Part shown: positions 5,004-37,105 of the stretch, piece by piece | Layout: each line of letters begins with the position of its first letter | Numbering within the stretch: position 1 is the stretch's first letter | Source: Methylophaga thalassica | GTDB lineage: Bacteria > Pseudomonadota > Gammaproteobacteria > Nitrosococcales > Methylophagaceae | Assembly (NCBI GenBank): GCA_011052985.1 | Contig: DRHY01000082.1 | Span: 1-49,099, forward strand | Length of the DNA stretch: 49,099 nucleotides | Reading direction: 5' to 3' | Notes under the pieces: generated by a model | What the model was told of the DNA's origin: nothing | Seen by the model: the letters and a program-made list of their open reading frames with translations, nothing else | Databases searched by the model: none | Translations under genes and position numbers: made by a program

Positions 5004-5108
5004 TTACATAAACAACAAAAAATTTCCTTCCGCTGCTATTTATTTTCCCTATTTACATTTGCACTTTATGCGGTTAACAATGGTGTATGTTTAAGGTGAG
5101 TGCACAAT

Positions 5109-6344
5109 GTGAAAGTTATAGTTGAATATGGGACAGAAATCGACTTACGAGAGTCAGTAGTTAGTCAGGTCACCAAGATACCATTGAAGGGTACTGATAA
5201 GGTCTTCGGTGCAGCTGTCTTTGATGACAACGGAAGATTGTTACCTCTAATAAGTGAATACCTGTCGTGGGCTACCAAAACACAAGATCTATCTACCAAC
5301 TCAGCTTTAACATATGGGAGAAATCTAGCTTATTTTCTGGGTTATCTTCAAAGCCGAAGAGGTTTTTCAGAAAATGAAAGCGATGAAGCTTTCTTAACGG
5401 TACAAAAACATGTCATACAAGAGTATTTTTCTCACCTAGAAAAAGAGCAAGAATTATCGTCAAAAACAATTAGAAACAGAGATGCTTGCCTAAGAGCATT
5501 TGTTAGTGATTATCTCTGTCAGCCTCAGGGGGACAAATTAGCTCTGCGGGAAGATGACCCTTGGTTAGGAAAATTCTTATCGAAAAGTCCCAAAAACTCG
5601 AAAATAGAATCCTGTTCATTTGAAGAGCTTGAGGCCCTAATTAGGAGTTCATATTCTGAGAGGGAACGTACGCTCATACAGTTCCTTTTTGATAGTGGCT
5701 TAAGACGATCAGAACTACCAAGAGTTACGCTTGCAGATATTAACGCTGCAATTAAATTCAATTCAGAAGAGTTTGTCGCATCTGAGCACGCTAACCCTGT
5801 TACACCTCAGTACTCTCCTCTTTTTGTCAAAGGTAGTAAGGGAAGGGCAAATCAAATCAAGCCTCGTTGGACGCTAGTCAGTAAACCGACATTGATGAGA
5901 ATTAGAAAGTATCACTCATCACCTCTATACAAGCGACATTCTCGGAAATATACAGACCCAGATAGCACTCCAGCCTTCTTCAATGCTCAGGGGCTCCCAT
6001 TTTCAGCGAAAAGCATCAGCAAATTGGTTGAAAGACTATCAAAAAGGGCAATCACCAATGGTGCATTATCAAAGTCTATTTCACCCCATAAATTAAGGCA
6101 CGGAAATGCTTATGCCATTCTCCAATCCGAAGATTTAGGTGTCGACTTCTTGGATCGTTTGGTTATTGTTCAAAAAAATTTCGGGCACAACCAGCTTAGT
6201 ACGACAGAAATGTACACCAGCATACCGCAGGACTTATACAACAAGATGTGTGATGAGCATGGTCAGATTATGACTCGAGCACAGAAAATGTCATACCTGC
6301 TAGCAAATACCCAACTTAAAATTAGATTAACGCAGGATAGATAA
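5109..6344 (+). CDS. Tyrosine recombinase 1 of the element (Tn554 TnpA-like)
   Basis: About 410 aa. It has an N-terminal SAM-like core-binding domain and a C-terminal catalytic domain with a full set of tyrosine-recombinase residues: Arg I in DSGLRRSEL (about residue 200), HKLRHG (His-x-x-Arg, about 329), FGHNQLST (His) and the nucleophile Tyr in TTEMYTSIP (about 371). It should cut and rejoin DNA at the att sites. A GTG at 5100 is in frame, but the GTG at 5109 has AAGGTGAG 8 bases upstream and is preferred. Its stop overlaps the next start by one base. It is the first gene inside the left end, in the expected place for an integrase. Confidence 0.9.
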   Translation: MKVIVEYGTEIDLRESVVSQVTKIPLKGTDKVFGAAVFDDNGRLLPLISEYLSWATKTQDLSTNSALTYGRNLAYFLGYLQSRRGFSENESDEAFLTVQKHVIQEYFSHLEKEQELSSKTIRNRDACLRAFVSDYLCQPQGDKLALREDDPWLGKFLSKSPKNSKIESCSFEELEALIRSSYSERERTLIQFLFDSGLRRSELPRVTLADINAAIKFNSEEFVASEHANPVTPQYSPLFVKGSKGRANQIKPRWTLVSKPTLMRIRKYHSSPLYKRHSRKYTDPDSTPAFFNAQGLPFSAKSISKLVERLSKRAITNGALSKSISPHKLRHGNAYAILQSEDLGVDFLDRLVIVQKNFGHNQLSTTEMYTSIPQDLYNKMCDEHGQIMTRAQKMSYLLANTQLKIRLTQDR

Positions 6345-8692
6345 TGAGTGACAAAAACAAAGAACTAGTCGGGGAGTGGGTAGACTCCGTAGTCAATAAC
6401 AGGCGAGAGCTTTTGTCAGCAGAAATTACGCATGCTAAGAGAGCTAAGTATGGTTACTTGGTCTCTGCGAATTATTTGAGTCAAACACTTAGTTTGGACT
6501 TGGGGATCATTAGAAGAAATAACTATCGCCAGCTGACAGATCAGGTTATTGAGGAGATGGTAAGAGAAAAAATTATCATCCCAGGGCATGCTCCAGCCGC
6601 CAACAATTTGAGAAGACTCCTGCTAGAGTGGTTTGAAGGGCTTACTCCACAAGAAAAAGCTGACTTGCCCATTTTCGGCAACAAAATAAACATAAAGAAG
6701 GTGCTTAGAGGTGAGCTAAGCTCTATTATTGCTGGAATTCGGCGTTACAAATTAGTTTCTGATACTTGGTCAGAAATCCATGCTGAGTTGATGAATGAAG
6801 GCATCCTGGATGCCAATTATCTTCCAGTAAAGAGCAGGACTCCTAAAAAAAGCACCACAAAGGGGACATTGATAGATAGGTATATGTCTCTGGCTGAGGA
6901 GTATATGAAATCTGAGAAGTTTGATCTGCCAGATGAAGAACAACCCTATATTCAACTGGAACAGCTTTTTGCCATCAGTGCTTCAGGGGTTGCTTCCCGT
7001 TCAGGTAAATCTAATTTCTACAATGCTTGTGAGGATTTGAAGTCTCATTACAAAGAGACTGGGAATAAAACTTCATATCAGCTTAAAGAGCTACTAAACG
7101 AATTCACTTTGACTAGGTATAAACAATACCTGGATGAAAAAATAAACGCAGGCAGTATTTCTCCAAATCACGCTTCAAGTCTTTTAAGTGCTGTTAGAAA
7201 AACGCTTAACTTAGCCACGGAGTTAAAAGAACTCAACTATGGAGGATTCCTGGACGTTAGTGGCTATGACCCAAAGCGTGTAACAGACCAAAATAAACCT
7301 TATTCAAGCTTTGAGCGAAAACAAATTAGTCATGCAATTAATGCTGGTATAGAAAAAGTTACGAAACTGATAAGACCAGATATTTATTCCGGATCTGGAC
7401 AGAACCCTCTCAATGATGACTTCAAAATTAGACCAGGCATGGGAACTATAGAAAATGCTAGATGGTTATTTGAAAATAAGCTGGACTGCATTCCAGTTCA
7501 TTATCCTATTTCAAAAGACAAAAATATTTATCAGAGGAAATTTCTTTCAATAATAAACTCAAGCGATCGAGGCTTGCAGGAAACATATGAGGAATGGGGT
7601 GTTATTCCAGCTATTGATTTGACGTTTATAGTTCCATTCTTACTTAAGCTTGCAATGGTTACTGGGTTGAATGTGGAGTCATTACTTTTTCTGGATATTG
7701 ATGACTATCTATCAAGCCATCCAGCCACAGGAAGGCCTTGTCTTAGATATTGGAAAGAGAGATCAGATGGTCAAAAAGAGTATCACCTAGATCTTTTCAA
7801 TGCTGAGCTGACTTGGTTGACCACCGTTCAGAGTAGAGAAGTGAAAAAGATATTTGATGCTGTCGTAGATCTCACCTCAGAAATAAGAGTCAAGGCGAGT
7901 GATGTTTACAAATCAAGACTTTTTATCTACGAATCATCAGGGGTCAGGACACACAAAGTAGTTTTGCCGTTAATTGAAACAAGTGGTGAAAAAGCGTTCA
8001 GGATTTATCGTGCACTTAAAGCATTTGTCAAAGAATATGACCTCGTAGATGATACTGGAAAGCCACTGATACTTAACATCAGTAGATTTCGACCTACCTT
8101 CGTCAGTGAAATGCTAGAGAACGGTGCAGCTCTTCGAGATATACAACTCATGCTTGGACACTCCAATATTGAGACCACGATTGGATACCTTGATAGTCTA
8201 GATTTCAATACTTTTGCAAGAAAGAAGGTTAACGAGAAGCTTATAGAGATACATCAAGGAACTTTTGTTCAAAAGTCTGAAGATAATGCCCGAGCGGTTA
8301 TTCCTGGAAATAAAGATGAGGTAATCTTTAAAACACCACTCTCGTCGTGTAGAAATATTTTTGACCCGCCTGACTTTATAAAAAAACTAAAAAACTTCGT
8401 TCCAGGAAAACCATGCTCTCAATATAACAAGTGTTTGAGCTGTGAAAATGTGATTATCACAAAGGCCAACCTACCAGAACTCTTCGCAATGCAGAGAGAT
8501 TACCTTCTGTTACTTGAAAGAAACCGAGTTATGGATACTCCATATGGCCACGTTATTAAAGAAAACTTAGAACTTATAGAGCAAATTATCAATCCTGATA
8601 ATTCAGACTTCTCCGTGGAAGAATTGAGTTTCGCTGAACGTGCCTCAGCCCATCTTGATAGCTCAATCCTCGTGGATGGGGTCATAGCATGA
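6344..8692 (+). CDS. Tyrosine recombinase-like protein 2 (TnpB-like), degenerate active site
   Basis: 782 aa. The C-terminal half aligns to the tyrosine-recombinase fold. ENGAALRDIQLMLGHSNIET is typical and is followed by the Tyr in IGYLDS (about residue 614). Two catalytic positions are changed: Arg I is Asn in TGLNVESLL (about 440), and the His of the HxxR box is Ser in ISRFRPTF (about 578). After the catalytic domain comes a Cys cluster, CSQYNKCLSCENVIITK (about 690-706), that looks metal-binding and recurs in recombinase 3. It may act as a structural or partner subunit. It starts at ATG 6344 (TAATG overlap with gene 1) and ends in an ATGA overlap with gene 3. Confidence 0.82.
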   Translation: MSDKNKELVGEWVDSVVNNRRELLSAEITHAKRAKYGYLVSANYLSQTLSLDLGIIRRNNYRQLTDQVIEEMVREKIIIPGHAPAANNLRRLLLEWFEGLTPQEKADLPIFGNKINIKKVLRGELSSIIAGIRRYKLVSDTWSEIHAELMNEGILDANYLPVKSRTPKKSTTKGTLIDRYMSLAEEYMKSEKFDLPDEEQPYIQLEQLFAISASGVASRSGKSNFYNACEDLKSHYKETGNKTSYQLKELLNEFTLTRYKQYLDEKINAGSISPNHASSLLSAVRKTLNLATELKELNYGGFLDVSGYDPKRVTDQNKPYSSFERKQISHAINAGIEKVTKLIRPDIYSGSGQNPLNDDFKIRPGMGTIENARWLFENKLDCIPVHYPISKDKNIYQRKFLSIINSSDRGLQETYEEWGVIPAIDLTFIVPFLLKLAMVTGLNVESLLFLDIDDYLSSHPATGRPCLRYWKERSDGQKEYHLDLFNAELTWLTTVQSREVKKIFDAVVDLTSEIRVKASDVYKSRLFIYESSGVRTHKVVLPLIETSGEKAFRIYRALKAFVKEYDLVDDTGKPLILNISRFRPTFVSEMLENGAALRDIQLMLGHSNIETTIGYLDSLDFNTFARKKVNEKLIEIHQGTFVQKSEDNARAVIPGNKDEVIFKTPLSSCRNIFDPPDFIKKLKNFVPGKPCSQYNKCLSCENVIITKANLPELFAMQRDYLLLLERNRVMDTPYGHVIKENLELIEQIINPDNSDFSVEELSFAERASAHLDSSILVDGVIA

Positions 8693-10758
8693 ATACTGAA
8701 AAGCAAATTGAGAATATTCAAAATTTTACCTTACACCGACCTTATATTCTCACGATCGTAAATCATGGAAAACCACAGAAAAGTGAAACTAGTAGTGAAG
8801 AATATCTAGTCCAACTCATGAATATGCCTGTTTCCAAAGCTTCCATTTTTGGAGATGACGTCTGGGATTTCAATGCAGATCAGCCTCAAGCAGCCAGAAA
8901 TGTCAGAGGTTCAAAGTTAAAAGTTAACTTCAACCTATATGACAATATCCCTAAATTCGTTCAGACTGAGTTGAAGACACTTTTCTTTTACATCCTATTA
9001 AGTCCGCTGTCATTTCGGAATGAGAAAAAAACAAAACGTCTGGCAAAAGGCAAGTTAAAACCCAATACCCTGATTGGAGTTTTCAAATCGGGAATGAGGT
9101 TCATTGATAAGGTTTTTGATGTTGCCATCCTTGAGTATGGGAGGGAATATGTTCACCAGGAAATAAAATCTCTGGCCGAAATTTCTACTTATGAATTTGA
9201 GGTTGCTGCAAGATCATACACATACAATTTTGATTCCACGCTGCTTAACTTTTTCACTTATTTACGCCACCCTCTAAGTTCCAAGGAGGTACTAGATGGA
9301 GCTATTTCGAATTTCGATTTGAAGTCCCGGATTAAACCAAAAGGTCAGGTCGTTAATGCAGAGTCAAAAATAATTCCCAATAGTATTTTTGAAAAATTAT
9401 CAGCACTATCTTCCTTACTCATAGTAGATTTTCTTCAGGAGTTGGAAGAGGAAGTACAAGACCAAAACTCACTAAAACAACTAAAATATCGGGGTAGTAT
9501 TTGGTCTCGGGAATGTGGTGTCAATCAGTCTTCATTCAATGAATATCGAGTACTGAGACTTAGGTACAAAAATTATTCAGAAAGCTATATTAGAGAAAAT
9601 TATCCTGTACCTGATTGGATTTTCGAGTACGGTGATAACACAGAGAAAAGCTTTATGGCTTTCAACAAAATGGAACTACTCTGCAGGGCACGTTTCATGC
9701 GCGAGCCCCTAAGAAAGCACATTAACTTAGTTTACCAAGCATGCTTATATATTGTTGGCCAATTCACGGGAATGAGGCCTTCAGAAATGTCTGAAATAGT
9801 TGTTAAAGATGAACAGTGCCTTAAGAAAGAAGATGGTCATTGGCTAATTTGCAGCCAAGTCAAAAAACACCGTGAATCATACAATGGACTATTTGACGAG
9901 AAGTGGCTAGCTATACCCATCATACGTGATGCTATTAGAGCAGCCAGTATCATTAACACGTTAAAAAACAACCCTTATTTATGCGCCAATGCAGATACAG
10001 TAGCCAGTTGTGAAACTCCCCAGGCAATGGGAAGTTCTGGCATAAAACATCAGATCAATAATCTGATTGATTTCTTTTTTGGTAGCGAGAAGGTTAAGTC
10101 GCTGGCGTTCTATCCATACATGATGAGGCACACCCTGGCCTATCAGCTATTTAGAGCTGAATTGGGTCTCCCATTTATTTCATTTCAACTAAAACATTTC
10201 ATCACTGGGATAGATAGGTATACATCAAAGGGAGGGGTGTCAGAAGACACTCTCGGTTACGGTGATATTGCACAACAGCTTAGTAAAAATGGCCGATATT
10301 CAAAAAACATCAGACATCAAGCTGAACTTGAGTCTATAAAAGCGACCATGGACCCTGATGGAAATTACGCCGGTGTTAAAGCTGCTGAGCATAAGCAACA
10401 CATGAGCTCTCTCTTCAATGGCTATATGGCATCAGGATACACAAAGGAAGAAGTGTTCGAGGCGATGGTTCACCAGGGGATCGCTATAGTAAATGTTGGC
10501 CAAGGATATTGCTATGGTGGTCAGGTTGAAGATTTTAATGATAGTTTGCCCTGTATTGGGGGGCTTAGGTGTAATCCCGTTAGATGTGGAAATGCAATCG
10601 TTACAAAGCAAAATGCTCCACATTGGAGGGGCATATACAGCCAAAACATGGCTAACTTAAATAACCCTGCTTATAGTCATGTCCAAGAAGAAATCAAAGC
10701 AGCTATTGAAGAAGCGAAGCTGGTGCTAACTCACTTAGGTGAGGATGTTGAGCTATGA
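8689..10758 (+). CDS. Tyrosine recombinase-like protein 3 of the element
   Basis: 689 aa. The long N-terminal region is not recognised. The catalytic half shows Arg I in FTGMRPSEM (about residue 361), YPYMMRHTLAYQ where the usual His of HxxR is Tyr (about 477), LKHF for the LGH box, and a likely nucleophile Tyr in GIDRYTSKGG (about 508). The C-terminus carries a Cys-rich motif (CIGGLRCNPVRCGNAIVTK, about 621) shared in pattern with recombinase 2. Start ATG overlaps the previous stop (ATGA), and its own stop overlaps the next start in the same way. A trio of recombinases resembles Tn554 and RIT elements, but the sizes are larger than in Tn554. Confidence 0.82.
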   Translation: MNTEKQIENIQNFTLHRPYILTIVNHGKPQKSETSSEEYLVQLMNMPVSKASIFGDDVWDFNADQPQAARNVRGSKLKVNFNLYDNIPKFVQTELKTLFFYILLSPLSFRNEKKTKRLAKGKLKPNTLIGVFKSGMRFIDKVFDVAILEYGREYVHQEIKSLAEISTYEFEVAARSYTYNFDSTLLNFFTYLRHPLSSKEVLDGAISNFDLKSRIKPKGQVVNAESKIIPNSIFEKLSALSSLLIVDFLQELEEEVQDQNSLKQLKYRGSIWSRECGVNQSSFNEYRVLRLRYKNYSESYIRENYPVPDWIFEYGDNTEKSFMAFNKMELLCRARFMREPLRKHINLVYQACLYIVGQFTGMRPSEMSEIVVKDEQCLKKEDGHWLICSQVKKHRESYNGLFDEKWLAIPIIRDAIRAASIINTLKNNPYLCANADTVASCETPQAMGSSGIKHQINNLIDFFFGSEKVKSLAFYPYMMRHTLAYQLFRAELGLPFISFQLKHFITGIDRYTSKGGVSEDTLGYGDIAQQLSKNGRYSKNIRHQAELESIKATMDPDGNYAGVKAAEHKQHMSSLFNGYMASGYTKEEVFEAMVHQGIAIVNVGQGYCYGGQVEDFNDSLPCIGGLRCNPVRCGNAIVTKQNAPHWRGIYSQNMANLNNPAYSHVQEEIKAAIEEAKLVLTHLGEDVEL

Positions 10759-11249
10759 GCGAAGCTTACGATAAAAAAAATCAGCTTGATTATGACAACA
10801 ATACACAAAAAATAAATGAAGCTTTGATTCAAATTAGAAATAATAAAGAGTTGAAGCCCACTATATCGCAACTCACAAAGTTAACTGGTATTCATCGAAA
10901 CACCATTTCGAATAGGGTGGAACCTGTTCAAGAGCTTCGCAAAATAAAACAACATCGAGAAGAAGAGGCACAGAAAAGTAAAGAAAAAAAACTGACAAAG
11001 GAAGACCCTCTGTCACTGCTGGAAAGAGAAATAAAAGCAGTAAGGATTGAAGCGCTTTATTGGTTCAACAAATTTCTTTCTATGGAAAAAGATTTTGAGC
11101 AAGTAAATAAGCGATTTGATGCAATGACAAAATCAAGAGACCACTACAAAGAGCTCTACGAGAGCGAGATCTCAAACAAACATGACCTTGAAAGCCGCAT
11201 AAAAAATTTCACCCAAATTATGAATGATTTAGATAAGGAAAAACCATGA
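10755..11249 (+). CDS. Small HTH/coiled-coil protein, TnpC-like transposition accessory
   Basis: 164 aa and strongly charged. The N-terminal 55 residues look like a helix-turn-helix ([21 protein letters not shown]). The rest is Lys/Glu-rich helix with likely coiled coil (residues about 65-160). Tn554 TnpC and the DUF6262 group are likewise small, helical and encoded after the recombinases, so an orientation or efficiency factor for transposition is the likely role; this is by analogy. It is coupled by ATGA overlaps to recombinase 3 upstream and to the truncated thyA downstream. No membrane segment or signal peptide is seen. Confidence 0.7.
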
Positions 11250-13076: not shown

Positions 13077-13229
13077 GTGACTCCATCAAAAAATCCAAAA
13101 ATTAAAACACCTAATGATTTGAAGGAAGTCATTCAACAGATGGCTGACGATGCCATTTTAGTTGCTACTGGAGGCCTAATTTCTAGAGGGCTGCTAGAGA
13201 AGAGACTTAAATTTGTTCATGGTTTGTAG
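13077..13229 (+). pseudogene. Unknown ORF truncated by the IS3 element
   Basis: A GTG 12 bases after the thyA stop, with a GGAAG motif ahead of it, opens about 50 codons (beginning TPSKNPKIKTPNDLKEVIQQ, ending EKRLKFVHGL). The stop TAG is supplied by the first bases of the IS, so the original gene was longer. No family is recognised. The close spacing suggests it was co-transcribed with the complete thyA. The rest of the gene is not found on the other side of the IS. Confidence 0.45.
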
Positions 13230-13232
13230 TGG

Positions 13233-14395
<1,163 letters not shown>

Positions 14396-14459
14396 TGAAC
14401 ACCTCTGTGGAGGTCATAGTACCTACTAAAATGGTGTCCGGGATCAGTAAACCACTACA

Positions 14460-14589
14460 GGATTTGGTCATACCAGCCAGAACCACAGTCAAACCCGAAG
14501 CACATTAAATTTTTATCTGGGCCCTGGTGCCTTCCTCGGTAAATGATCGGGCATTGCTGATAAATGTTTTCTGCTAGTTATCGACGCAT
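14460..14589 (-). pseudogene. Broken left copy of the 135-aa unknown gene
   Basis: Read on the minus strand from ATG at 14589, it matches the start of the intact gene at 44840 (AEKIYQRCPIIYRG, then KNLMCFGF and a SGW motif). Codon 4 is TAA, so translation stops at once, and the IS3 element removes everything after about residue 43. It follows the 100-aa gene by 3 bases, the same order and spacing as in the right-hand copy. It is doubly inactivated. Confidence 0.8.
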
Positions 14590-14592
14590 GGC

Positions 14593-14895
14593 TTAACCCT
14601 GATATTTCAGTCGAACGCGAATACCTTCATTCCTACTGAAATGGGCTAAATAGATTTGCGCCAAGGGGTACAGAGGCCCGGGTCGATCCAGAAAGAAATA
14701 TTTTGACCCCGACCATGTCTTACCCGTATTTGACTGTGGGTCATACTCAATAACCTGTGAACTAAACCTGATGTGTTGGAGTTCATAGTAATACCCAAGA
14801 AATTTTTCGACCACGTGCCCCTGATATTCGACGATCACAAAATTCCAGTCACTCATCGTCACCGGACCCGGCGGAATTTTCTGAATCATACGCAC
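14593..14895 (-). CDS. Unknown 100-aa protein, left copy
   Basis: A paralogue of the 101-aa protein at 44527. Shared stretches include IPPG.VTMS/ITMS, VIVEYQG/LVIEYQG, EKFLGY, FSSQVIEYDP/LSSQVLEYDP, and GSKYFF. No known domain, signal or membrane segment is recognised. The first possible start is GTG at 14895, in line with the ATG of the other copy; ATG at 14889 is an alternative. A run of ten G (minus strand, 14904 to 14895) abuts the start and occupies the ribosome-binding position, which could make expression slip-prone. Its partner gene downstream is broken. Confidence 0.65.
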   Translation of the reverse strand: MRMIQKIPPGPVTMSDWNFVIVEYQGHVVEKFLGYYYELQHIRFSSQVIEYDPQSNTGKTWSGSKYFFLDRPGPLYPLAQIYLAHFSRNEGIRVRLKYQG

Positions 14896-15312
14896 CCCCC
14901 CCCCATAAAAACTACCAACGTTGTCGCACAGTTCTTTTCATATTTCCATTTAATTTCATAATGTTATCTGGATACACAATTGGGCTAATTGTAAACTATT
15001 GTTTTCAGTAAGATTTACAAAAATTTGATGCGATGACTTTTTTAAAGCCAAAAAAATTTGCGCAAAGTAATTCCATGAATTGGCTTTACGCTGCAGTAGC
15101 TACTAGGGGATGAAGTTATTAATGGATGAATAGCCACCGATTTGCTAGACACTTTTTAGCCACCATTGGATTGCCCTGACTATCCTAGACAACTTTCGGC
15201 AAAAAATCTCAGTATCAGTGAGTTAATATAATAAACATCTTTTGCTGATATAGATCATTGCTTCAAATTTCCTGTTGGATGATCATGGTTCTGTATAGAC
15301 ACAGTCATAGGA
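14896..15312. promoter_or_regulatory. Gap with promoter region homologous to that of the right-hand gene pair
   Basis: No gene is seen. On the minus strand, going upstream from the 100-aa gene, the blocks TAACATTATGAAATTA, GAAAACAATAGTTTACA and GCGCAAA appear in the same order as upstream of the 44527 copy, so promoter and genes were duplicated together. GTAAACTATTGT at 14991-15002 differs by one base from the XRE-linked half-site at 46365. TTTGCGCAAA at 15057-15066 is a palindrome related to the one at 46706. The right part must hold the promoter for the DUF5676 gene on the plus strand. Confidence 0.55.
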
Positions 15313-15324
15313 GTGAAAATCAAA

Positions 15325-15567
15325 ATGAAACTTAACAGTGCAAACTTCGCTCTAGCTGCTAGCTTGACAACTGCTATTGTTTGGGTCGCGTGTAGCTTTT
15401 TAGTAGTTATGTTACCCCAAGCGACCATGATAGCTTCAGGCGATATGATCCATATGGATATTCAGAACATGATGTGGTCATTAACATTATCAGGGTTCAT
15501 TAAAGGTCTTATCCTTTGGTCTTTGTCTGTCGGACTGAGTGCTTGGATTTTTTGCGGTAATATATAA
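15325..15567 (+). CDS. DUF5676-type small membrane protein
   Basis: About 80 aa with two hydrophobic helices (LAASLTTAIVWVACSFLVVM and SGFIKGLILWSLSVGLSAWI). The layout, two helices with a short charged linker and WI/WL near the C-terminus, fits the DUF5676 membrane proteins often found in heavy-metal clusters; their function is unknown. An in-frame GTG at 15313 overlaps the GGAG that serves as ribosome-binding site for ATG 15325, so the ATG is chosen. It precedes the YHS/HMA-like gene by 37 bases and is probably co-transcribed with it. Confidence 0.7.
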   Translation: MKLNSANFALAASLTTAIVWVACSFLVVMLPQATMIASGDMIHMDIQNMMWSLTLSGFIKGLILWSLSVGLSAWIFCGNI

Positions 15568-15604
15568 TCGCTTTCAGTCATGATGTATTCGAAAAGGTAG
15601 TGAA

Positions 15605-16084
15605 ATGACACAAACAAAAAATTGTCCCGTATGCGAAATGACAGTATCTGAAGACAGCTATACAGTCACACACAGAGGTATCATTTTTTGGTTATGCTCT
15701 GAACAATGCCGAGATAGATTCAATCTAAGACCAAGCTTGTACATCGGTGATCCCAAGCAAGGTAAGTCAGCCAAACAACATGGGATAAAAGTGCATAAAA
15801 AACGCAACCTCAATCTAGAGTTGCCAAATAACAATGAGTCAGCAAGTCTGCTGGTTCAAGCCCTAAACTCTCTGATGGGAGTCACTGAAGCCAAGATAAA
15901 TCAAGGCCAACTCGAGATTGAGTACGATCTGGTTGAGGTGTCTTTAGAAGAAATAGAAGCTTTCATTAAATCTACGGGCATCCACATCGAGCAGTCATGG
16001 CTCGACAAAATCCACGATAGTTTTATCCATTACAACGAAGAAGGACAACTGGATAATTTGGGCCATCCATATAAAGACAATTAA
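15605..16084 (+). CDS. YHS-domain protein with an HMA-like C-terminal domain
   Basis: 159 aa. The N-terminus is a YHS/TRASH-type metal site: CPVCEM at residues 8-13, then WLCSEQC about 25 residues later (Cys-x2-Cys and Cys-x3-Cys). The C-terminal 80 residues (ASLLVQALNSLMGVTEAKIN, then EIEAFIKSTGIHIEQSW) have the beta-alpha-beta pattern of a heavy-metal-associated fold but no CxxC. It is soluble, with no signal peptide. It probably binds or senses copper or another soft metal in the cytoplasm; this is inferred from domain and context. It shares the C-terminal fold with the protein at 28321. Confidence 0.7.
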   Translation: MTQTKNCPVCEMTVSEDSYTVTHRGIIFWLCSEQCRDRFNLRPSLYIGDPKQGKSAKQHGIKVHKKRNLNLELPNNNESASLLVQALNSLMGVTEAKINQGQLEIEYDLVEVSLEEIEAFIKSTGIHIEQSWLDKIHDSFIHYNEEGQLDNLGHPYKDN

Positions 16085-16087
16085 CCG

Positions 16088-16780
16088 TTATCTCTGTGTT
16101 TGTTTCCAGGTTAAGTGCTCGTAAAGGCCAGTCCAGTAATAACCAAAACTAGCTGCAAAGAGAAGTTCCTCAATAGGAATACGAAGAATGAACAGTCCAC
16201 TGAGCGCGTCCAGATTCCACACACGTTCAATGTACCCAGGCGCTATGCTTTCAAGCCCAAGAACATATAGAGAATAATAAACAAGAAAACACACACTCCC
16301 CCAAAAACTCTTAATAGCGAGGTCTGGTCGACATAGGCTATTTGCTATGCCCCCTGCAATCATCGACATGATAGCTGGATAAATCGGATTCCAATCCCAA
16401 AGCATCAAAATTGGGAACAAGAGAAAAGGCGTAATCACTGCCAGTGTGTGGTGTTTATGCCGCTTTGTTAAACGAACTTGAAAAGAGATAGCTTGAAGCT
16501 TTTGGCGAGTGACAACGTTATAAGCTATCGCACCGATTCCACCGATACCGAAACAAAAAATCAAACTCTCAACATCAAACCCAGTTTCCAAAGCCAAATT
16601 GAATAAACTTGGCGGACTCCAATATTCTGGCACAAACAACGGCTCAGTAAATCCAAAGAGCATGGTAATCAAGCTTGCTTTCAACATTATGGAACGATAG
16701 GCCGGTGTAGCGATGTATACAATCAGCCACGGAATAAGAAATGCCAGAGACCAAACTAACCAAACGTACTGCACATTCAT
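16088..16780 (-). CDS. Lycopene-cyclase-domain-like membrane protein
   Basis: 230 aa, about six to seven hydrophobic helices. Two patches resemble the heterodimeric-type lycopene cyclase domain: W-PP-LFNLALETGFDVES, with FGIGGIGAI behind it, and ILRIPIEELLFAASFGYYW (the P-x-E-E-x-x-F signature). No carotenoid genes are nearby, so a cyclase reaction is doubtful. Similar proteins of unknown role turn up in metal-resistance islands. It is convergent with the YHS gene (3 bases apart) and divergent from the 16997 gene, sharing the 216-base region that contains a CopR-like box. Confidence 0.6.
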   Translation of the reverse strand: MNVQYVWLVWSLAFLIPWLIVYIATPAYRSIMLKASLITMLFGFTEPLFVPEYWSPPSLFNLALETGFDVESLIFCFGIGGIGAIAYNVVTRQKLQAISFQVRLTKRHKHHTLAVITPFLLFPILMLWDWNPIYPAIMSMIAGGIANSLCRPDLAIKSFWGSVCFLVYYSLYVLGLESIAPGYIERVWNLDALSGLFILRIPIEELLFAASFGYYWTGLYEHLTWKQTQR

Positions 16781-16880
16781 TTAGACGTCTTCCCTAAAAT
16801 TAATTACCAGCCACATATGAACTTTAATGATAATTGTTGATTAAAAAGTACAAATACTAATAGATAAAATGCTGTAATTC

Positions 16881-16895
16881 ATTACATCTTTGTCA
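16881..16895 (-). promoter_or_regulatory. Putative CopR/CusR box
   Basis: On the minus strand it reads TGACAAAGATGTAAT, 13 of 15 identical to TGACAAAATTGTAAT at 41483, next to the copRS pair, and similar to the E. coli CusR box (TGACAnnnTGTCA-type). A further CATTACA pair lies at about 16910-16928. The position between the divergent 16780 and 16997 genes suggests copper-dependent control of one or both. Confidence 0.5.
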
Positions 16896-16996
16896 CATTT
16901 GATTTAGATCATTACAAGTTCATTACATATATTCTTTTTTGTTAGAGCAGGAGTTATTATAGAATTCAAAGATGTTACCTGAAGGCGTATGAAAGG

Positions 16997-17383
16997 ATGC
17001 TCAGTTTTTCCAAACTATTTTTGCAGGTGGTTGTAGTGATGGCTTTTTTAGGTCAGCCACTAATTGCTATATCTGCGCCATGCAAAGATATGACCATGCA
17101 TGCGTCTGGCTCTCATATTTTGGAATCGAGTGACAAACGTGATTCTGAGCAAACCCATCATGTCAAACATGGTAAAGAGCTGGCTTTAGATTGCTGTGAC
17201 ACCTCAACTTGTAATACTAGTTATTGTTTGTCCCTCAGTCAGATAGCTCATACATCTTCCATCCCCTCTCAACTGTTTTCAGTCAAAATTTCAAACTACC
17301 TTCGCCCTGTTGTTGGGGTAAGCTATTTAGACTTTGATTCGAACTCATTTTTCCGTCCTCCCATTTCCCTAATCACAGGATAA
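16997..17383 (+). CDS. Small exported Cys/His-rich protein of the copper cluster
   Basis: 128 aa. A signal peptide (FSKLFLQVVVVMAFLGQPLI, then AISA) is followed by a short mature protein with His and Met residues (KDMTMHASGSH, QTHHVKHGKE) and a cluster of Cys (LDCCDTSTCNTSYC). That composition fits a periplasmic or lipid-side metal binder like the leader proteins that precede cus/cop efflux operons. No defined family is recognised. It lies upstream of the cusCBA genes on the same strand, behind a CopR-like box, and so is probably the first metal-induced gene of that operon. Confidence 0.6.
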   Translation: MLSFSKLFLQVVVVMAFLGQPLIAISAPCKDMTMHASGSHILESSDKRDSEQTHHVKHGKELALDCCDTSTCNTSYCLSLSQIAHTSSIPSQLFSVKISNYLRPVVGVSYLDFDSNSFFRPPISLITG

Positions 17384-17601
17384 ATCCGCCTGTTTAGACG
17401 ACTGTAGAGCTCAAATGGTGTCAATAATTTTGCACCATAAGCTCAAGTTTCACGGGACGAACAGCATATTTGTATTTTTGCTTGCGGTTAAATTATCCAC
17501 ATCAACACAGAGTTGAGTGTCTTCTGACTCCAAGTCTTCAAAAGACAAACAAAAATCAGTGCAGACACTACGTTCATCAAGCTCAAACCGGAACAGTACC
17601 A

Positions 17602-18966
17602 ATGCGTAATATCAAATATTTACGGTTTAAAATTTTTAGCACTGAGTCACTTAAAGCTTTTGTTTTTATGGCTCTAGCTCTCAATATTTTGCCTCTGTCA
17701 GCTCAAGAGCTGTCTCTTGAAAAAGCTATCGAGATGGCTCAGAAAAATGATCCCTGGATAGAAGGAAGTTATCTGAAAGAACAGGCCAATATTGCTCAGA
17801 GCATAGCTGCTGGTCAGTTACCTGATCCTGTCATATCACTTGGATTCGCGAATATGCCTCTGGACAGTTTCGACTTTAATCAAGAGCCAATGACACAATT
17901 TAAAGCGGGTGTCTCCCAAGTTTTTCCTCGGGGTGAAACGCTCGAGTTGCAAAGACAAAAGTTGGAAGAAATGAGTCGCCGGCACCCTTTTTTGCGTCAA
18001 GACAGATACGCGAAAGTGCAATTGACAGTTACTCAATTATGGCTCGACTTATATCAGAGCCAAGAGACTATTCGACTGATTGAAAAGGACAGATCATTGT
18101 TTGAGTATCTTGTCGAAGTGGCTGAAGTAAGTTACAGCAGTACATTTGGAAGAAGCCGCCAACAGGATCTTGTTCGAGCCCAGCTCGAGCTGACACGAAT
18201 TGAAGACCGACTAACAGTACTTGATAGAAAAAGAAGTGAGACTCAGGAAAAACTTGCCGAATGGCTTTATGGCACGGGAACAAATTGGCAGGAAGCGGGA
18301 GTTTCACAAACACTGCCGGAATTAGAATTAAAGCTTAAAACTGACCACGAAGAAACTGTCAACCTAGCTAAGTATGAAACCCCAGATTTTATTAACCATC
18401 CAATAATCAGGAGCCTAGAGCAACAAATCACGGCTTCAGAGACCAATGTTGATCTGACAAGACAAAAATACAAATCACAATGGGGAGTTAATGCAAGCTA
18501 TGGCTACAGAGATGACGCCCCCGGTGGTCAAGACCGCAGTGATTTCTTTTCATTAGGTATAAGCTTTGATTTACCCATTTTCACGGAAAAACGACAAGAC
18601 AAGGAAGTAGAAGCAGCGGTAAGCAGTAAGGAAGCGTTAAAAACTGATAAAACCCTCGCATTACGTACTATCAAGGCTCGTTTTCATCAAGCCAAAGAGA
18701 GACTAATCTGGCTAGAGAAGCGCCGCGAACTGTACAGTGAGCGCCTGTTAAAAGAGATGAATGATCAGGCTGAAGCTTCTTTAAACGCTTATACCAATGA
18801 TGATGGCGACTTTGCCGAAGTTGTTCGTGCTCGTATTGCTGAGCTCAATGCCAACATCGACTACCTGTCTATCAACATAGACCGGCTAAAAACAATTGCT
18901 GAACTGAACTATTTCTCAAGTTCATCTGAATACAAGACATCCATTAACGGGAATCAAAATGACTAG
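17602..18966 (+). CDS. cusC: CusC-like outer-membrane efflux protein (TolC family)
   Basis: About 454 aa from the chosen start. It is the outer-membrane channel of a tripartite Cu(I)/Ag(I) efflux pump. The signal peptide (hydrophobic AFVFMALALNILPLSAQE) is followed by the periplasmic alpha-barrel repeats of OEP proteins (ELSLEKAIEMAQKNDPWI, QLPDPVISLGFANMPLDSF, RLKTIAELNYFS at the end). The frame is open from 17470, but residues before MRNIKYLRF do not look like a signal, so ATG 17602 is preferred; its ribosome site is weak. Its last 8 bases overlap the start of cusB. It is shorter than the NodT-type CusC and has no lipobox. Confidence 0.85.
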   Translation: MRNIKYLRFKIFSTESLKAFVFMALALNILPLSAQELSLEKAIEMAQKNDPWIEGSYLKEQANIAQSIAAGQLPDPVISLGFANMPLDSFDFNQEPMTQFKAGVSQVFPRGETLELQRQKLEEMSRRHPFLRQDRYAKVQLTVTQLWLDLYQSQETIRLIEKDRSLFEYLVEVAEVSYSSTFGRSRQQDLVRAQLELTRIEDRLTVLDRKRSETQEKLAEWLYGTGTNWQEAGVSQTLPELELKLKTDHEETVNLAKYETPDFINHPIIRSLEQQITASETNVDLTRQKYKSQWGVNASYGYRDDAPGGQDRSDFFSLGISFDLPIFTEKRQDKEVEAAVSSKEALKTDKTLALRTIKARFHQAKERLIWLEKRRELYSERLLKEMNDQAEASLNAYTNDDGDFAEVVRARIAELNANIDYLSINIDRLKTIAELNYFSSSSEYKTSINGNQND

Positions 18967-20587
18967 TCCACACAAGACTATATTACTGATGCTGATTGCA
19001 ATAATGCTAACGGCAGTAATCACATATGGTATGACGCGGAAGTACTTTGAAGATAACACGGCTCATGATAATGACTCCGTAGAAAAGCAACCGTTATATT
19101 GGGTTGCACCTATGGACCCCAATTATCGCCGAGACCAACCGGGTAAATCACCAATGGGTATGGATCTGATTCCTGTGTATGAAGAAAACGAAACCTCCAT
19201 GGACTCGGGCCCAGGAACAATCACCATCTCTCCAGATGTTGTCAATAATATCGGGGTGAGGACTGTTAAGGCTGAATACCTGCCCATTCATTCAGAAATA
19301 AAAACGGTTGGTTATGTTCAGTACGATGAAGACAAACTAGTTCATATCCATCCACGGGTTGAGGGCTGGGTAGAAAAGCTTTATGTCAAAGCTGCCGGTG
19401 ACCCAATTAAAAGAGGACAACCACTCTATAAGCTTTACTCACCTGAACTTGTAAACGCCCAAGAAGAGCTTGTCTTGGCGCTTAATCGAGACAATGTACG
19501 CTTAATTAAAGCATCTGAAGATCGCTTGAAGGCATTACAAATAGCTGGCTCAGTTATTAACCAAATCAAACAAACACGCAAGGTCCAGCAAGCCATAACG
19601 TTCTATGCTCCGCAGACTGGGGTCGTCGATAACCTTAATGTGCGTGAGGGGTTCTATGTCAAGCCGGGCATGAATTTGATGTCGGTGGGTGACCTCAGCA
19701 CAGTCTGGGTTGAAGCTGAAATCTTTGAACGTCAGGCAGAGCTGGTCGAGGCAGGGCAAGCTGTCACCATGACTCTAGATTATATGCCCGGAAGAGAGTG
19801 GCTTGGAAAAGTCGACTATGTTTACCCCACATTAAATGACGAGACGAGAACAGTTCGAGTCCGGCTTCGCTTTGATAACGAAGATTATGTCCTCAAACCG
19901 AATATGTTTGCTCAAGTGACGATAGCGACTGCTGAAGGGGAAGAAAAACTGATGCTCCCAACTGAAGCGCTTATCCGAACAGGCGATCAGGATCGTGTTG
20001 TGCTGGCTCTTGGAGAGGGCAAGTTTAAGTCTATTGCAGTTATCGCCGGCAACATTGGTGAAAATCATGTAGAAATCATCAGTGGTCTTGAACCGGGTGA
20101 GGAAGTGGTCAGTTCTGCACAGTTTCTTCTTGACTCAGAATCCAGCAAGACTTCAGATTTCAAGCGCATGCATCATGAAGACTCCAAGCCTCAATCTGTA
20201 TGGGTTGAGGCAAAGATTGAGTCAGTTATGGCGGAACATCGAATGGTCACAGCTACCCATTCAGCAATCAGTGAGTGGGATTGGCCGGCGATGACTATGG
20301 ATTTCATTGTCAGTGAAAATATTGATCTGAGCGCTCTCTCAAAAGGTACACAACTGCACATGGAAATCACTAAATCAGGTACTGATCGCTACGAAATCAC
20401 CGAGATACATATCAAAGATGCTGATGGCACTACAAACCAAAGCTCTGCAACTCAAACTAACAGGCCAATGAGTTCGATACGTGATGATGTTCAGTCTGAC
20501 CGTATAGCGCTTAATCAGGCAACAAGTACTCAAAAGGCGGATGCTGAAGACCCTGAGCATTCATACCAGCAACACTCAGGCATGTAG
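18959..20587 (+). CDS. cusB: CusB-type periplasmic adaptor with fused CusF domain
   Basis: 542 aa. An N-terminal membrane anchor is followed by a heavy-metal-binding motif (YWVAPMDPN, KSPMGMDLIPVYEE), then the hairpin/lipoyl/beta-barrel of RND adaptors (HPRVEGWVEKLYVKAAGDPI, LMSVGDLSTVWVEAEIFERQ). After residue about 415 comes a CusF-like OB-fold (VWVEAKIESVMAEHRMVTAT, WDWPAMTMDF), in which the His, the Trp and the two Met of the Cu(I)/Ag(I) site are visible. In E. coli CusF is a separate chaperone. Here the chaperone is built into the adaptor. It overlaps cusC and is followed 12 bases later by cusA. Confidence 0.92.
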   Translation: MTSPHKTILLMLIAIMLTAVITYGMTRKYFEDNTAHDNDSVEKQPLYWVAPMDPNYRRDQPGKSPMGMDLIPVYEENETSMDSGPGTITISPDVVNNIGVRTVKAEYLPIHSEIKTVGYVQYDEDKLVHIHPRVEGWVEKLYVKAAGDPIKRGQPLYKLYSPELVNAQEELVLALNRDNVRLIKASEDRLKALQIAGSVINQIKQTRKVQQAITFYAPQTGVVDNLNVREGFYVKPGMNLMSVGDLSTVWVEAEIFERQAELVEAGQAVTMTLDYMPGREWLGKVDYVYPTLNDETRTVRVRLRFDNEDYVLKPNMFAQVTIATAEGEEKLMLPTEALIRTGDQDRVVLALGEGKFKSIAVIAGNIGENHVEIISGLEPGEEVVSSAQFLLDSESSKTSDFKRMHHEDSKPQSVWVEAKIESVMAEHRMVTATHSAISEWDWPAMTMDFIVSENIDLSALSKGTQLHMEITKSGTDRYEITEIHIKDADGTTNQSSATQTNRPMSSIRDDVQSDRIALNQATSTQKADAEDPEHSYQQHSGM

Positions 20588-20599
20588 GAGGGAACAACA

Positions 20600-23500
20600 A
20601 TGGTTGAGTCAATCATTCGCTGGTCAATCAGTAATCGCTTTTTTGTCTTGCTTGCCACTTTGATTTTGGTTGGTGTTGGGGTGTTCTCTTTAAAAAACAC
20701 ACCGGTAGACGCGATCCCTGATCTTTCTGATGTTCAAGTCATTATCAAGACTAGCTATCCGGGACAGGCTCCCCAGGTTGTTGAGGATCAGGTGACCTAC
20801 CCTCTGACCACAGCAATGTTATCAGTGCCGGGTGCGGTCACTGTAAGAGGATATTCATTTTTTGGTGACTCTTATGTCTATGTAATTTTTGATGAGGACA
20901 CAGACCTATACTGGGCGCGGAGCAGAGTATTGGAATACTTGAGTCAAGTGGCACCGTCACTACCCGAAAATGCCAGACCTCAATTGGGTCCTGATGCTAC
21001 GGGTGTTGGATGGGTTTACCTATATGCGCTCATAGACAGAACCGGTAAACAAGACATCAGCGAATTACGTTCATTGCAGGACTGGTTCCTGAAATATGAA
21101 TTACAGACAGTGCCAGGGGTATCAGAAGTTGCTGCTGTTGGCGGCATGGTCAAGCAGTATCAGGTAAATGTGAATCCTGAAAAAATTCGAGCTTTTGGTA
21201 TCCCTCTGTCACACATTCAGACAGCCATCAAGCGTGGCAATCAGGAGGTGGGTGCTTCTGTAGTAGAAATGGCCGAAGCCGAATATATGGTGAGAGCGAC
21301 CGGCTATATTCAGTCCCAAACCGACCTCGCCCAAGTTCCCTTGGGCGTCAATAGCCAGGGTACCCCCCTTACACTTGGTGATGTTGCAGAAATCAAGCTT
21401 GGTCCACAAATGCGTAGAGGTATCGCAGAATTGAATGGCCTCGGTGAAACTGTAGGTGGTGTTGTCGTCATGCGCTTTGGCGAGAATGCACAAAAAACCA
21501 TTGAGGGTGTCAAGGATAAATTGCAGGAACTTAAACAAGGTCTACCAGAAGGTGTTGAGATTGTGACGGTTTACGATCGCTCGGGACTTATTGAGCGTGC
21601 TGTAGACAACCTTTGGCACAAATTACTGGAAGAGTTTGCCGTTGTTGCACTGGTATGTATGCTCTTCTTATTCCATGTTCGGTCATCACTTGTTGCTATT
21701 GTTAGTCTTCCTGTCGGTATTCTCACTGCATTTACCGTCATGCATATCCAGGGTATCAATGCCAATATCATGTCATTGGGCGGTATCGCTATCGCCATCG
21801 GCGCCATGATCGATGGCGCTATAGTGATGATTGAAAATATGCATAAGCATATGGAAAAAACGTCTCTTACCAAGGAAAATCGATGGCAAGTAGTGGCTGA
21901 CTCTGCTTCTGAGGTTGGACCAGCATTATTCTTCAGCCTACTGATAATCACTGTCAGTTTTGTGCCGGTATTTACACTGGAAGCACAAGAGGGACGTATG
22001 TTTTCACCGCTCGCCTTCACTAAAACCTATGCGATGGCGGCATCTGCAGCGTTGGCGATTACGCTGGTTCCTGTCTTGATGGGCTACTTCATCCGAGGGA
22101 AAGTATTACCGGAACACAAAAATCCCATCAACCGGTTGTTGGTCGCCGCTTATATGCCGGTTTTGAAAATGGTTTTAGCGTTTCCCAAAACAGCCATTTT
22201 CATTGCGCTACTTGGCTTGGCTTCAACCTACTGGCCTTTACAGAAAATTGGCAGTGAGTTTATCCCTCCACTTGATGAAGGCGATCTCATGTATATGCCC
22301 ACCACTTATCCTGGCATTTCCATTGGTAAAGCCCGAGAGATTCTTCAGCAAACGGATAAGTTAATTATGACCGTACCTGAGGTGAAAACGGTATTTGGCA
22401 AGATTGGCCGAGCTGAAACAGCGACCGACCCAGCTCCATTGACCATGATCGAAACTTTCATCCAGTTAAAAGAGCGAAGTGAATGGCGTGAAGGTGTGAC
22501 AACAGAGTCATTGAAAAAAGAGCTTGATAATTTGGTTAAATTGCCCGGTCTGACCAATGCTTGGGTCATGCCGATAAAAACACGGATTGACATGTTGGCA
22601 ACGGGGATTAAAACCCCGGTGGGGATAAAAGTTGCTGGCGCAGAACTCCCTGTAATTCAGCAGATAGGCCAACAACTTGAAACAATATTGGCAGATGTGC
22701 CTGGTACCGCCTCAGTCTATTCCGAGCGTGTTGCCGGTGGGCGTTATATCAAGGTGGATATTGATCGAGAAAAAGCTTCACGCTTTGGTCTTAATATTGC
22801 CGACGTACAACAAGTCGTTGCATCTGCAATTGGCGGGGTAAATGTCACCCAAACTGTAGAGGGGCTTGAGCGTTATCCCGTGAATATAAGATACCCACAG
22901 TCCTATCGGGATTCACCAGAGCAGATGGCATTACTTCCGATTGTCACGGCTAAAGGACAAAGGATCGCTCTGGGTGATGTAGCTGACATAAAAATTGAAA
23001 GTGGCCCCCCAGCAATCAAAAGTGAAAACTCCCGTATCAACGGCTGGACATTCGTTGATATAGAAGGTGTTGATATTGGCTCTTATGTTGAAACAGCTAT
23101 GGAGTCCGTCCGTAAAGAACTGGAACTCCCTACCGGCTACTCAATCCATTGGTCAGGTCAATATGAATACATGCTTCGAGCCAAAGAAAAGCTCACTTAT
23201 GTAGTACCACTGACACTAGCGATTATAGCCATACTCCTATTCATGAATTTCAGAAACTTTACGGAAGTTGTCCTACTGATGGGTACATTGCCTTTTGCCT
23301 TGATTGGGAGTATCTGGTTGCTCTACTTGATGGGCTTTAACTTTTCTATTGCTGTTGGTGTGGGATTCATCGCACTGGCTGGGGTGGCTGTTGAAATCAG
23401 CGTGATCATGCTGGTTTACCTCAATCAAGCCTGGCGAGAAAAGCTCACTAAGAATTCAACTAATTCAATCGGGAACTCACTAACCAAGACTCAATTGATG

Positions 23501-23722
23501 CAAGCGGTTATCACTGGAGCGGGATTGCGTGTTCGTCCGGTGATGATGACTGCAGCAGCGGTCATCGCAGGCTTGATACCCATACTACTTGGTACAGGAA
23601 CTGGCTCTGAGGTAATGAGCCGAATTGCTGCTCCGATGGTAGGAGGAATGGTAAGTGCGGTCATTTTAACCTTATTAGTACTGCCCGCTTTCTATTACCT
23701 ATGGAAGCTGAAATCAAAGTAG
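20600..23722 (+). CDS. cusA: CusA-type heavy-metal RND efflux transporter
   Basis: 1040 aa, the usual length for HME-RND pumps. It takes Cu(I)/Ag(I) from the periplasm or cytoplasm and drives export by proton flow. Twelve membrane helices and two large periplasmic loops are evident. Family marks are DAIPDLSDVQVIIKT near the N-terminus, MDAI-like GAMIDGAIVMIENMHKH in helix 4 with the proton-relay Asp and Glu, and GSEFIPPLDEGDLMYMP at the start of the second porter loop. Met residues in the second half (MPIKTRIDMLATGIKTP) match the metal-relay Met positions of CusA. It is the last gene of the cusCBA operon. A 288-base gap follows before merR. Confidence 0.94.
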   Translation: MVESIIRWSISNRFFVLLATLILVGVGVFSLKNTPVDAIPDLSDVQVIIKTSYPGQAPQVVEDQVTYPLTTAMLSVPGAVTVRGYSFFGDSYVYVIFDEDTDLYWARSRVLEYLSQVAPSLPENARPQLGPDATGVGWVYLYALIDRTGKQDISELRSLQDWFLKYELQTVPGVSEVAAVGGMVKQYQVNVNPEKIRAFGIPLSHIQTAIKRGNQEVGASVVEMAEAEYMVRATGYIQSQTDLAQVPLGVNSQGTPLTLGDVAEIKLGPQMRRGIAELNGLGETVGGVVVMRFGENAQKTIEGVKDKLQELKQGLPEGVEIVTVYDRSGLIERAVDNLWHKLLEEFAVVALVCMLFLFHVRSSLVAIVSLPVGILTAFTVMHIQGINANIMSLGGIAIAIGAMIDGAIVMIENMHKHMEKTSLTKENRWQVVADSASEVGPALFFSLLIITVSFVPVFTLEAQEGRMFSPLAFTKTYAMAASAALAITLVPVLMGYFIRGKVLPEHKNPINRLLVAAYMPVLKMVLAFPKTAIFIALLGLASTYWPLQKIGSEFIPPLDEGDLMYMPTTYPGISIGKAREILQQTDKLIMTVPEVKTVFGKIGRAETATDPAPLTMIETFIQLKERSEWREGVTTESLKKELDNLVKLPGLTNAWVMPIKTRIDMLATGIKTPVGIKVAGAELPVIQQIGQQLETILADVPGTASVYSERVAGGRYIKVDIDREKASRFGLNIADVQQVVASAIGGVNVTQTVEGLERYPVNIRYPQSYRDSPEQMALLPIVTAKGQRIALGDVADIKIESGPPAIKSENSRINGWTFVDIEGVDIGSYVETAMESVRKELELPTGYSIHWSGQYEYMLRAKEKLTYVVPLTLAIIAILLFMNFRNFTEVVLLMGTLPFALIGSIWLLYLMGFNFSIAVGVGFIALAGVAVEISVIMLVYLNQAWREKLTKNSTNSIGNSLTKTQLMQAVITGAGLRVRPVMMTAAAVIAGLIPILLGTGTGSEVMSRIAAPMVGGMVSAVILTLLVLPAFYYLWKLKSK

Positions 23723-23904
23723 AAACCTATTATTCAGCTTTGTAATGCTTATACGTATATCCAATAGACGGAGCTATTTAATCCCTTCTGGGATAGACGC
23801 TCCTTGCAGAGGCACATGCCCTTCAGGGAGATAAAAATATAAGAAGTGAATAAATGATTGGTAAAGGCATTGGGTTACATTTTAAATAATTAATTACAAC
23901 CGTA

Positions 23905-23935
23905 TTGACCTATGTCAAGGACACAGGTTTAAGGT
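23905..23935 (+). promoter_or_regulatory. MerR-type promoter/operator with 19-bp spacer
   Basis: TTGACC at 23905-23910 and TAAGGT at 23930-23935 are separated by 19 bases, the over-long spacing typical of MerR-family promoters. Inside lies a dyad, ACCTATGT / ACACAGGT (one mismatch, 5-base centre). It is upstream of the merR gene on the same strand, so autoregulation with the HMA and ATPase genes is likely. Confidence 0.65.
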
Positions 23936-24010
23936 TGAACTAACCTGTTAGTCAAACCAAAGTTTAAAACGCAGCTTTGGCGTCAAAAGTCTGACAAAGG
24001 GAGTGAGCGA

Positions 24011-24436
24011 ATGCTTGTTAATGAGGTTGCGAAACTACTGAAGATAGGCCCTGATACAGTTAGGTTTTATACTCGTGCCAAGTTGATTAATCCTGAAAAA
24101 AACCGATTCAATGGCTATCGAGAATACCGCCAAAAAGATGTAAGGCGTTTGAAGTTTGTATTAACAGCCAGACAACTGGGTTTTTCGATTGATGATATTC
24201 AGCGGATATTGGCCGACGCTGACAAGAAGAGGTCACCTTGCCCTCAGGTAAGGCACTTGCTTGAAAAGCGTTTGCAAGAAACTGAAGAGCGTTTCCAGGA
24301 AATGCAGCAACTGAGAGAAAGGATGCAAAAGGCCTTGGCAGTATGGCAGCGAATGCCGGATATGGAGCCCACAGGCGAGATGATTTGCCATTTGATAGAA
24401 GAATTTACGATCCCATTAAAACTGGAAGAAAAATGA
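24011..24436 (+). CDS. MerR-family metal-responsive regulator
   Basis: 141 aa. The N-terminal MerR winged helix (EVAKLLKIGPDTVRFYTRAK, FNGYREYRQKDVRRLKFVLT) is followed by the dimerisation coiled coil. Possible metal-binding Cys are in RSPCPQVRHLL (about residue 77) and EMICHLIEEF near the C-terminus. The two-Cys pattern differs from the C-x7-C loop of CueR, so the metal cannot be named from sequence; the genes it precedes point to Cu(I)/Ag(I). The MerR-type promoter lies 76 bases upstream. Its stop overlaps the HMA gene start (ATGA), so the regulator, HMA protein and ATPase form one operon. Confidence 0.88.
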   Translation: MLVNEVAKLLKIGPDTVRFYTRAKLINPEKNRFNGYREYRQKDVRRLKFVLTARQLGFSIDDIQRILADADKKRSPCPQVRHLLEKRLQETEERFQEMQQLRERMQKALAVWQRMPDMEPTGEMICHLIEEFTIPLKLEEK

Positions 24437-24750: not shown

Positions 24751-24764
24751 GTCCGGAGTTAGCC

Positions 24765-27212: not shown

Positions 27213-27329
27213 ATCAGCTTGTCTCAGTGGATTCAGGTTGGATGTTTTTTAAGAATGGGTGAACACTCCTAGCGCTACGATAAGCGGAGTTTAACAAACG
27301 CTAATTTTTACTCACACGTGAGGTGCATT

Positions 27330-27605: not shown

Positions 27606-27640
27606 GGCTCAGGATAAGACAACATTATAGGAGAAATAGC

Positions 27641-28267: not shown

Positions 28268-28320
28268 ATTGGTGAGGAAACGTCAACAACATAGCCTAAT
28301 GTGGAAGTGGAGATGATGAA

Positions 28321-30322: not shown

Positions 30323-30332
30323 CGGGACAATT

Positions 30333-37084: not shown

Positions 37085-37105
37085 ATTACCTGCAAGTTAA
37101 AGTAG

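Follow-up and report, generated by a model that had tools for sequence, protein, structure and literature searches.

Introduction

Integrative elements of the GInt type have an operon in which a small fourth gene accompanies three tyrosine-recombinase-type genes; they carry their cargo behind this operon and insert in a fixed target gene (PMC5385486). The gene thyA is not named in that description, nor in one of strand-biased circularizing elements. HAD_SAK_2 (PF18143) is the "Swiss Army Knife" RNA repair HAD domain, and the proteins of the DksA/TraR type carry a characteristic zinc finger.

To our knowledge the SANTA domain (PF09133), found in M18BP1/KNL2, is known only from eukaryotic chromosome-segregation proteins. 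It is presented as a module of Eukaryota in the title of a paper cited in PMC2628886, and binding of both DNA and protein has been reported for the SANTA-containing KNL2 (PMC13294675).

In this study we analysed a stretch of 49,099 nucleotides from Methylophaga thalassica (contig DRHY01000082.1), referred to as the window, which contains a metal cargo and two copies of a pair of small genes, here called A and B. The original prediction described an unknown two-gene pair duplicated in inverted orientation at both borders of this cargo. We compared the pairs with their relatives in Methylophagaceae, Burkholderiaceae, plasmids and phages, and the proteins with described folds and families.

Results

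The thyA insertion site

The chromosomal thyA gene is split at 4974/46808 by inserted elements, the main parts of which are as follows.

4420..4974 (+): 5' part of chromosomal thyA, left junction
5100..11249 (+): GInt-like operon, three tyrosine-recombinase-type genes and a 164-aa gene
13225..14460 (no overall strand assigned): IS3-family insertion sequence, both open reading frames on the minus strand
15313..43685 (no strand assigned): metal cargo, collinear with M. thiooxydans (contig G055:C19), 98–99% identical
46808..47179 (+): 3' part of chromosomal thyA, right junction

The products of the recombinase operon are 414, 782, 689 and 164 aa long, and PF00589 scored above the cut-off in the first two genes and weakly in the third. 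The operon shares with GInt elements the three recombinase-type genes with a small fourth gene, the cargo that comes after them and the insertion in a fixed target gene, a likeness in layout. The window differs in that the target is thyA and extra thyA pieces are aboard.

Related elements sit in the same thyA site in M. thiooxydans. In strain DMS010 (G055:C19) nothing lies between this chromosomal flank and the homologue of window position 11791; a 66-kb element comes next, and then the thyA 3' end at C19:105107. Since this junction lacks the 5100-11249 block, the block is a separate insertion. Judged from the two sequences, a GInt-like operon and a second, cargo-bearing element are stacked in one thyA site. 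Positions 11791-13222 and 14458-43685 of the window are 98–99% identical to DMS010, collinear and in the same orientation relative to thyA. Approx. 4 kb of cargo (28707-32570) is missing in this otherwise 98–99% identical element and thus marks a variable cargo segment.

Pieces of thyA were found at 4420-4974, 11246-11818, 12141-13064 and 46808-47179. Directly where the recombinase operon ends, a 5' thyA fragment begins, and a complete, though diverged, thyA adjoins the junction. The thyA pieces carried by the elements might restore the function of the target after insertion.

The two A-B pairs

Both pairs and the genes that surround the right one are listed below.

14458..14589 (−): gene B, left copy, a stump of 44 codons with TAA at codon 4, cut by the insertion sequence
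14593..14895 (−): gene A, left copy, 100 aa, open, GTG start
14990..15007 (−): 18-bp block upstream of left A, exact match to the right block
43797..44258 (−): HAD/NIF-type phosphatase, divergent neighbour of A
44418..44435 (+): 18-bp block upstream of right A, exact match to the left block
44527..44832 (+): right A, encoding a beta-rich, SANTA-like protein of 101 aa
44840..45247 (+): gene B, right copy, 135 aa, intact, zinc-ribbon-like C-terminus
45285..45950 (+): 221-aa protein, with a 44% identical homologue beside the M. thiooxydans array
45970..46338 (−): 122-aa protein, homologue in M. thiooxydans
46417..46707 (+): 96-aa HTH regulator, homologue in M. thiooxydans

BLASTP aligned the left and right A proteins over 100 aa with 57% identity (E 6e-46). 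At the DNA level, including the upstream region and the start of B, identity is 68% over 545 bp (E 1e-53), and the 44-codon remnant of left B is 68% identical to right B. By these alignments the resemblance is far beyond chance, and with the A copies at 57% identity the duplication in the window is not recent. The predicted arrangement was thus confirmed, with the left pair on the minus and the right pair on the plus strand, in the same gene order and with matching upstream blocks. The upstream block TGAAAACAATAGTTTACA, perfect in both copies, lies approx. 110 bp before A. When up to one mismatch was allowed, its sites in 24 Methylophaga genomes were located only upstream of A genes, and because of this distribution the block may be a promoter or operator of the module.

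The right pair was correctly described as intact. It is part of a longer unit at 43797-46707, in the order HAD phosphatase (−), A, B, 221-aa, 122-aa and HTH gene, and lies 1.5–2.3 kb from the thyA junction. The HAD phosphatase scored 40.3 bits with PF03031, above the gathering score of 21.8. The G+C content of the unit is 38.6%, as compared to 45.0% for the cargo. A calcineurin-like metallophosphoesterase (MPE) gene, found with A and B elsewhere in the genus, is absent beside either pair.

The left pair had been considered dead downstream. For B this is true, as its reading frame stops at codon 4 and the insertion sequence truncates it. Left A is open and its product is identical to an A protein of M. 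thiooxydans (G055:C19), and therefore only left B is dead. At the position of the insertion sequence M. thiooxydans carries 10.3 kb that are absent from the window, comprising recombinase genes, a 436-aa gene, homologues of the window genes at 46417, 45970 and 45285, an MPE gene and an A-B-A-B array, in which one B copy also has a stop. This A-B-A-B-MPE array is located on the left of the cargo only; on the right, M. thiooxydans has nothing at the corresponding position that matches the HAD-A-B-221-122-HTH unit of the window. The cargo is consequently flanked on both sides only in the window genome.

We infer that the left pair is what remains of an array beside a deletion associated with the insertion sequence. 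The IS3-type element now sits where approx. 10 kb are missing, namely the end of left B, one more A-B pair, the MPE gene and the recombinases of that element. The right pair is an intact module near the thyA junction. The 10.3 kb could in principle have been gained in M. thiooxydans rather than lost in the window genome, but the cut of left B at the insertion sequence favours loss. Genome G036, also of Methylophaga, has a 99% copy of this insertion sequence next to an A-B array (L039 7706-8941).

A, B, MPE and HAD genes in Methylophaga

Genes for A were found in 18 of 57 genomes of Methylophagaceae. In four loci (L036-L039) MPE comes after direct tandem A-B-A-B arrays, and a divergently oriented HAD gene precedes them. 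Among 24 Methylophaga genomes, all strong B matches (17/17), 14 of the 18 strong MPE matches and nine of the ten HAD matches lie within 5 kb of A (0.6% expected in each case), the HAD count being the same within 3 kb; these genomes are related to each other, so that p-values calculated from the counts overstate the linkage. The A/B/MPE/HAD cluster is carried by elements integrated in thyA in the present case and has integrases as neighbours elsewhere in the genus. What had been described as an unknown two-gene pair is really a four-gene neighbourhood. Searches of Pfam, NCBIfam and PADLOC gave no match above cut-off for A or B. Not every A gene has all of the partners, and in several cases one or more of them is missing.

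Further frequent neighbours of A are genes for Y-family polymerase, endonuclease I and tyrosine integrases. The Y-family DNA polymerase recurs beside the HAD-A unit at L036 (6249-8674), L042, L043 and L044, together with a small protein with a SRAP-like start (MCGG, identified by eye only) and, in some of these loci, endonuclease I. Two 314-aa proteins (L040 7501-8445 and L041 7247-8191) have an N-terminal A-type domain, and their genes adjoin one for an AAA ATPase as well as a set of A, B and MPE. In one genome that consists of a single contig, the same A-B region occurs near both ends (G036:C1, 45071 and 3098232), which probably reflects an unclosed circle with overlapping ends.

A and B outside the genus

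Homologues of A were detected in 18 of 120 Burkholderiaceae genomes, and one is located on plasmid NZ_CP071130 of Caballeronia sp. M1242. Their neighbours in Burkholderiaceae include TniQ, TniB and TnsA/TnsB-like (Tn7-like) genes, DUF6471 and HAD_SAK_2 genes. MPE adjoins A in two loci outside the genus (L212 and L224) and lies within 2 kb of it in a third (L217). B was sought in the Burkholderiaceae A loci and not found. On the Polaromonas plasmid pPNAP03, A overlaps a HAD gene by 4 bp.

In one Burkholderiaceae locus (L206:5054-6289) a single protein consists of A, an HTH domain and HAD_SAK_2, and in another locus HAD_SAK_2 is encoded near A. The HAD gene of the window differs from these in that it is of the NIF type (PF03031) and stands as a gene of its own, with none of its neighbours recognised as an RNA ligase gene.

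B is far more widespread than A and occurs on plasmids of several phyla. On a Chitinibacter plasmid it overlaps a HAD gene by 4 bp, with another HAD gene and a 3'-5' exonuclease gene downstream. More than 580 matches to B were found in viral contigs. In the phage loci L083-L162 B stands in a conserved same-strand series of genes, which besides uncharacterised ones includes those for DNA ligase, 3'-5' exonuclease and DNA polymerase B; these neighbours stem largely from one related group of phages. A phage origin of A was considered and rejected, as A had no sequence match in phages or IMG/VR and only B is phage-rich.

Protein A and the SANTA domain

The AlphaFold model of A (pLDDT 91.8) is a beta-rich domain with one helix, and its top match in the PDB was the SANTA domain of M18BP1 (9r6h; Foldseek prob 1.00, E 0.04). 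In VIA the two structures aligned with Z 6.2 and 3.9 Å over 76 residues at 18% identity, which is below Z 8, the level that excludes a common arrangement, so that this score alone is no proof of a SANTA fold. The next-best VIA match was the RFTS domain of DNMT1 with Z 4.4.

At the sequence level PF09133 gave no SANTA match at E 10 against 24 A members and seven further proteins, and a search of the Methylophaga genomes with PF09133 returned no A gene and nothing over the cut-off. The weak PF09133 matches in Methylophaga were unrelated open reading frames that did not match the A profile and were discarded. Using the true 9r6h sequence, SANTA ranked approx. 1250 of 20,001 against the profile built from Methylophaga A only, which is not significant, and seventh of 20,001 (SANTA and 20,000 shuffles) against the profile of the Burkholderiaceae A homologues, which is suggestive. 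The invariant residues of A recur in SANTA in matching order and spacing as W-x(13,18)-G-x(9,14)-S-x(12,17)-T-x-S-G-x2-Y. This pattern was present in 23 of 32 A members (Methylophagaceae set), in none of 8,632 other open reading frames and in none of 300,000 shuffles, with spacing windows that were set after both A and SANTA had been seen and are thus somewhat post hoc.

As the Pfam SANTA model does not score, we file A as SANTA-like and not as a member of that family. A differs from the described SANTA proteins in being a stand-alone bacterial protein of approx. 100 aa on mobile elements; it is not part of a centromere protein, has no SANT domain and comes without a CENP-A system. Whether A is a true prokaryotic SANTA homologue that bacterial mobile elements employ along with phosphoesterases acting on nucleic acids is in our judgement evenly balanced.

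Protein B

The AlphaFold model of B is likewise confident (pLDDT 91.7), and searches of the PDB with Foldseek and VIA gave no match above noise. The best VIA rows, with Z up to 3.7, were mostly histidine-kinase ATPase domains and were dismissed as noise. Invariant in B are C106-x2-C109 and C126-x2-C/H, with H in the right copy of the window. This C-terminal arrangement, together with weak NCBIfam echoes of yteA and DksA, suggests that B carries a zinc site like that of DksA/TraR proteins. B differs from these in remaining below all cut-offs and in having a model without the coiled-coil arm.

Discussion

In our assessment the A-B pairs are very likely part of a cargo module of mobile elements. 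A function of the module in processing nucleic-acid ends is read from neighbours only and is put forward tentatively; we consider it because of the fusion of A to HAD_SAK_2, the exonuclease and ligase genes among the neighbours, and the DNA and protein binding reported for KNL2. The folds of MPE and HAD also act on nucleotides, proteins and small molecules, which weakens this reading. Taken as a whole, the explanation that we favour, with somewhat better than even confidence, is that both pairs are diverged paralogues of a recurrent mobile-element passenger module (A, B, MPE and HAD) that processes nucleic-acid ends. A would then be a small adaptor that binds nucleic acid or protein as SANTA domains do, and B would be a zinc protein. 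MPE and HAD may remove terminal or cyclic phosphates, with A and B supplying the binding, and such end processing could benefit the element through repair or by countering nucleases. Against the explanation as a whole speak the A genes that stand without partners, the absence of MPE beside both window pairs, the lack of family matches above cut-off for A and B and of a fold match for B, and the origin of the phage neighbours largely in one group.

The linkage and the fusion to phosphoesterases also argue against A and B being a toxin-antitoxin or immunity pair, with the arrays as immunity repertoires against variable toxins that stabilise the element. The small size of the two genes, their close spacing or overlap and their location on mobile elements would fit such a pair, as would the tandem, rapidly diverging arrays with truncated copies. 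Among the genes scanned beside the arrays no toxin domain or gene was recognised, however, and each of the two is also seen without the other, A in Burkholderiaceae and B in phages, so that we regard this function as unlikely. A little more credible, yet still improbable, is a role in anti-phage defence or anti-defence, in which A and B sense a ligand and MPE and HAD destroy the nucleotides or nucleic acids of a rival. The module is placed next to TniQ in Tn7-like elements, within integrated elements and on plasmids, spots that often house defence genes, and B is common in phages. Against this role, PADLOC assigned no family to A, B or their neighbours, and no abortive-infection effector was recognised.

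The inverted pairs could also be border markers, or a device of an invertible segment that flips the approx. 29 kb of metal cargo. Two inverted copies do enclose the cargo in the window and the 18-bp block is perfect, but in M. thiooxydans the orientation is the same and the array one-sided. Overall identity between the copies is 68% and the longest identical stretch 18 bp. As 18 identical bases in a row are too short for efficient homologous inversion, inversion of the cargo by this route is not expected. The search for the pair on other elements, which had been proposed as a check, returned many other settings, with no cargo between the copies and often with direct tandem repeats instead of inverted ones around a cargo. 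We therefore consider a border or inversion function highly improbable. The same holds for the idea that the pair was simply duplicated not long ago and that the insertion sequence moved one copy: gene order is the same in both copies and an insertion sequence lies beside one of them, but the A proteins are only 57% identical, left A has a far closer relative elsewhere (100% in M. thiooxydans, G055), and the insertion sequence does not contain A-B. Of the original prediction, nested insertion of similar elements stood in so far as the pairs reside on mobile elements and insertions are stacked, as seen from the split thyA and the related elements at the M. thiooxydans site. The pairs as markers of both cargo borders and as a means of cargo inversion did not hold; this structural part of the prediction is ordinary once the relatives are compared.

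The interest of the locus consequently shifts from borders and inversion to an undescribed module and its SANTA-like protein. An unannotated cargo module recurs on several unrelated classes of mobile elements, in Methylophaga as well as in Burkholderiaceae including Cupriavidus metallidurans CH34, and the fusion of A to a HAD "RNA repair" phosphatase gives this module a testable function. If the link to SANTA is true, a eukaryotic domain of CENP-A loading would have bacterial relatives on mobile elements, and the centromere domain would gain a bacterial relative in an easily studied protein of 100 residues.
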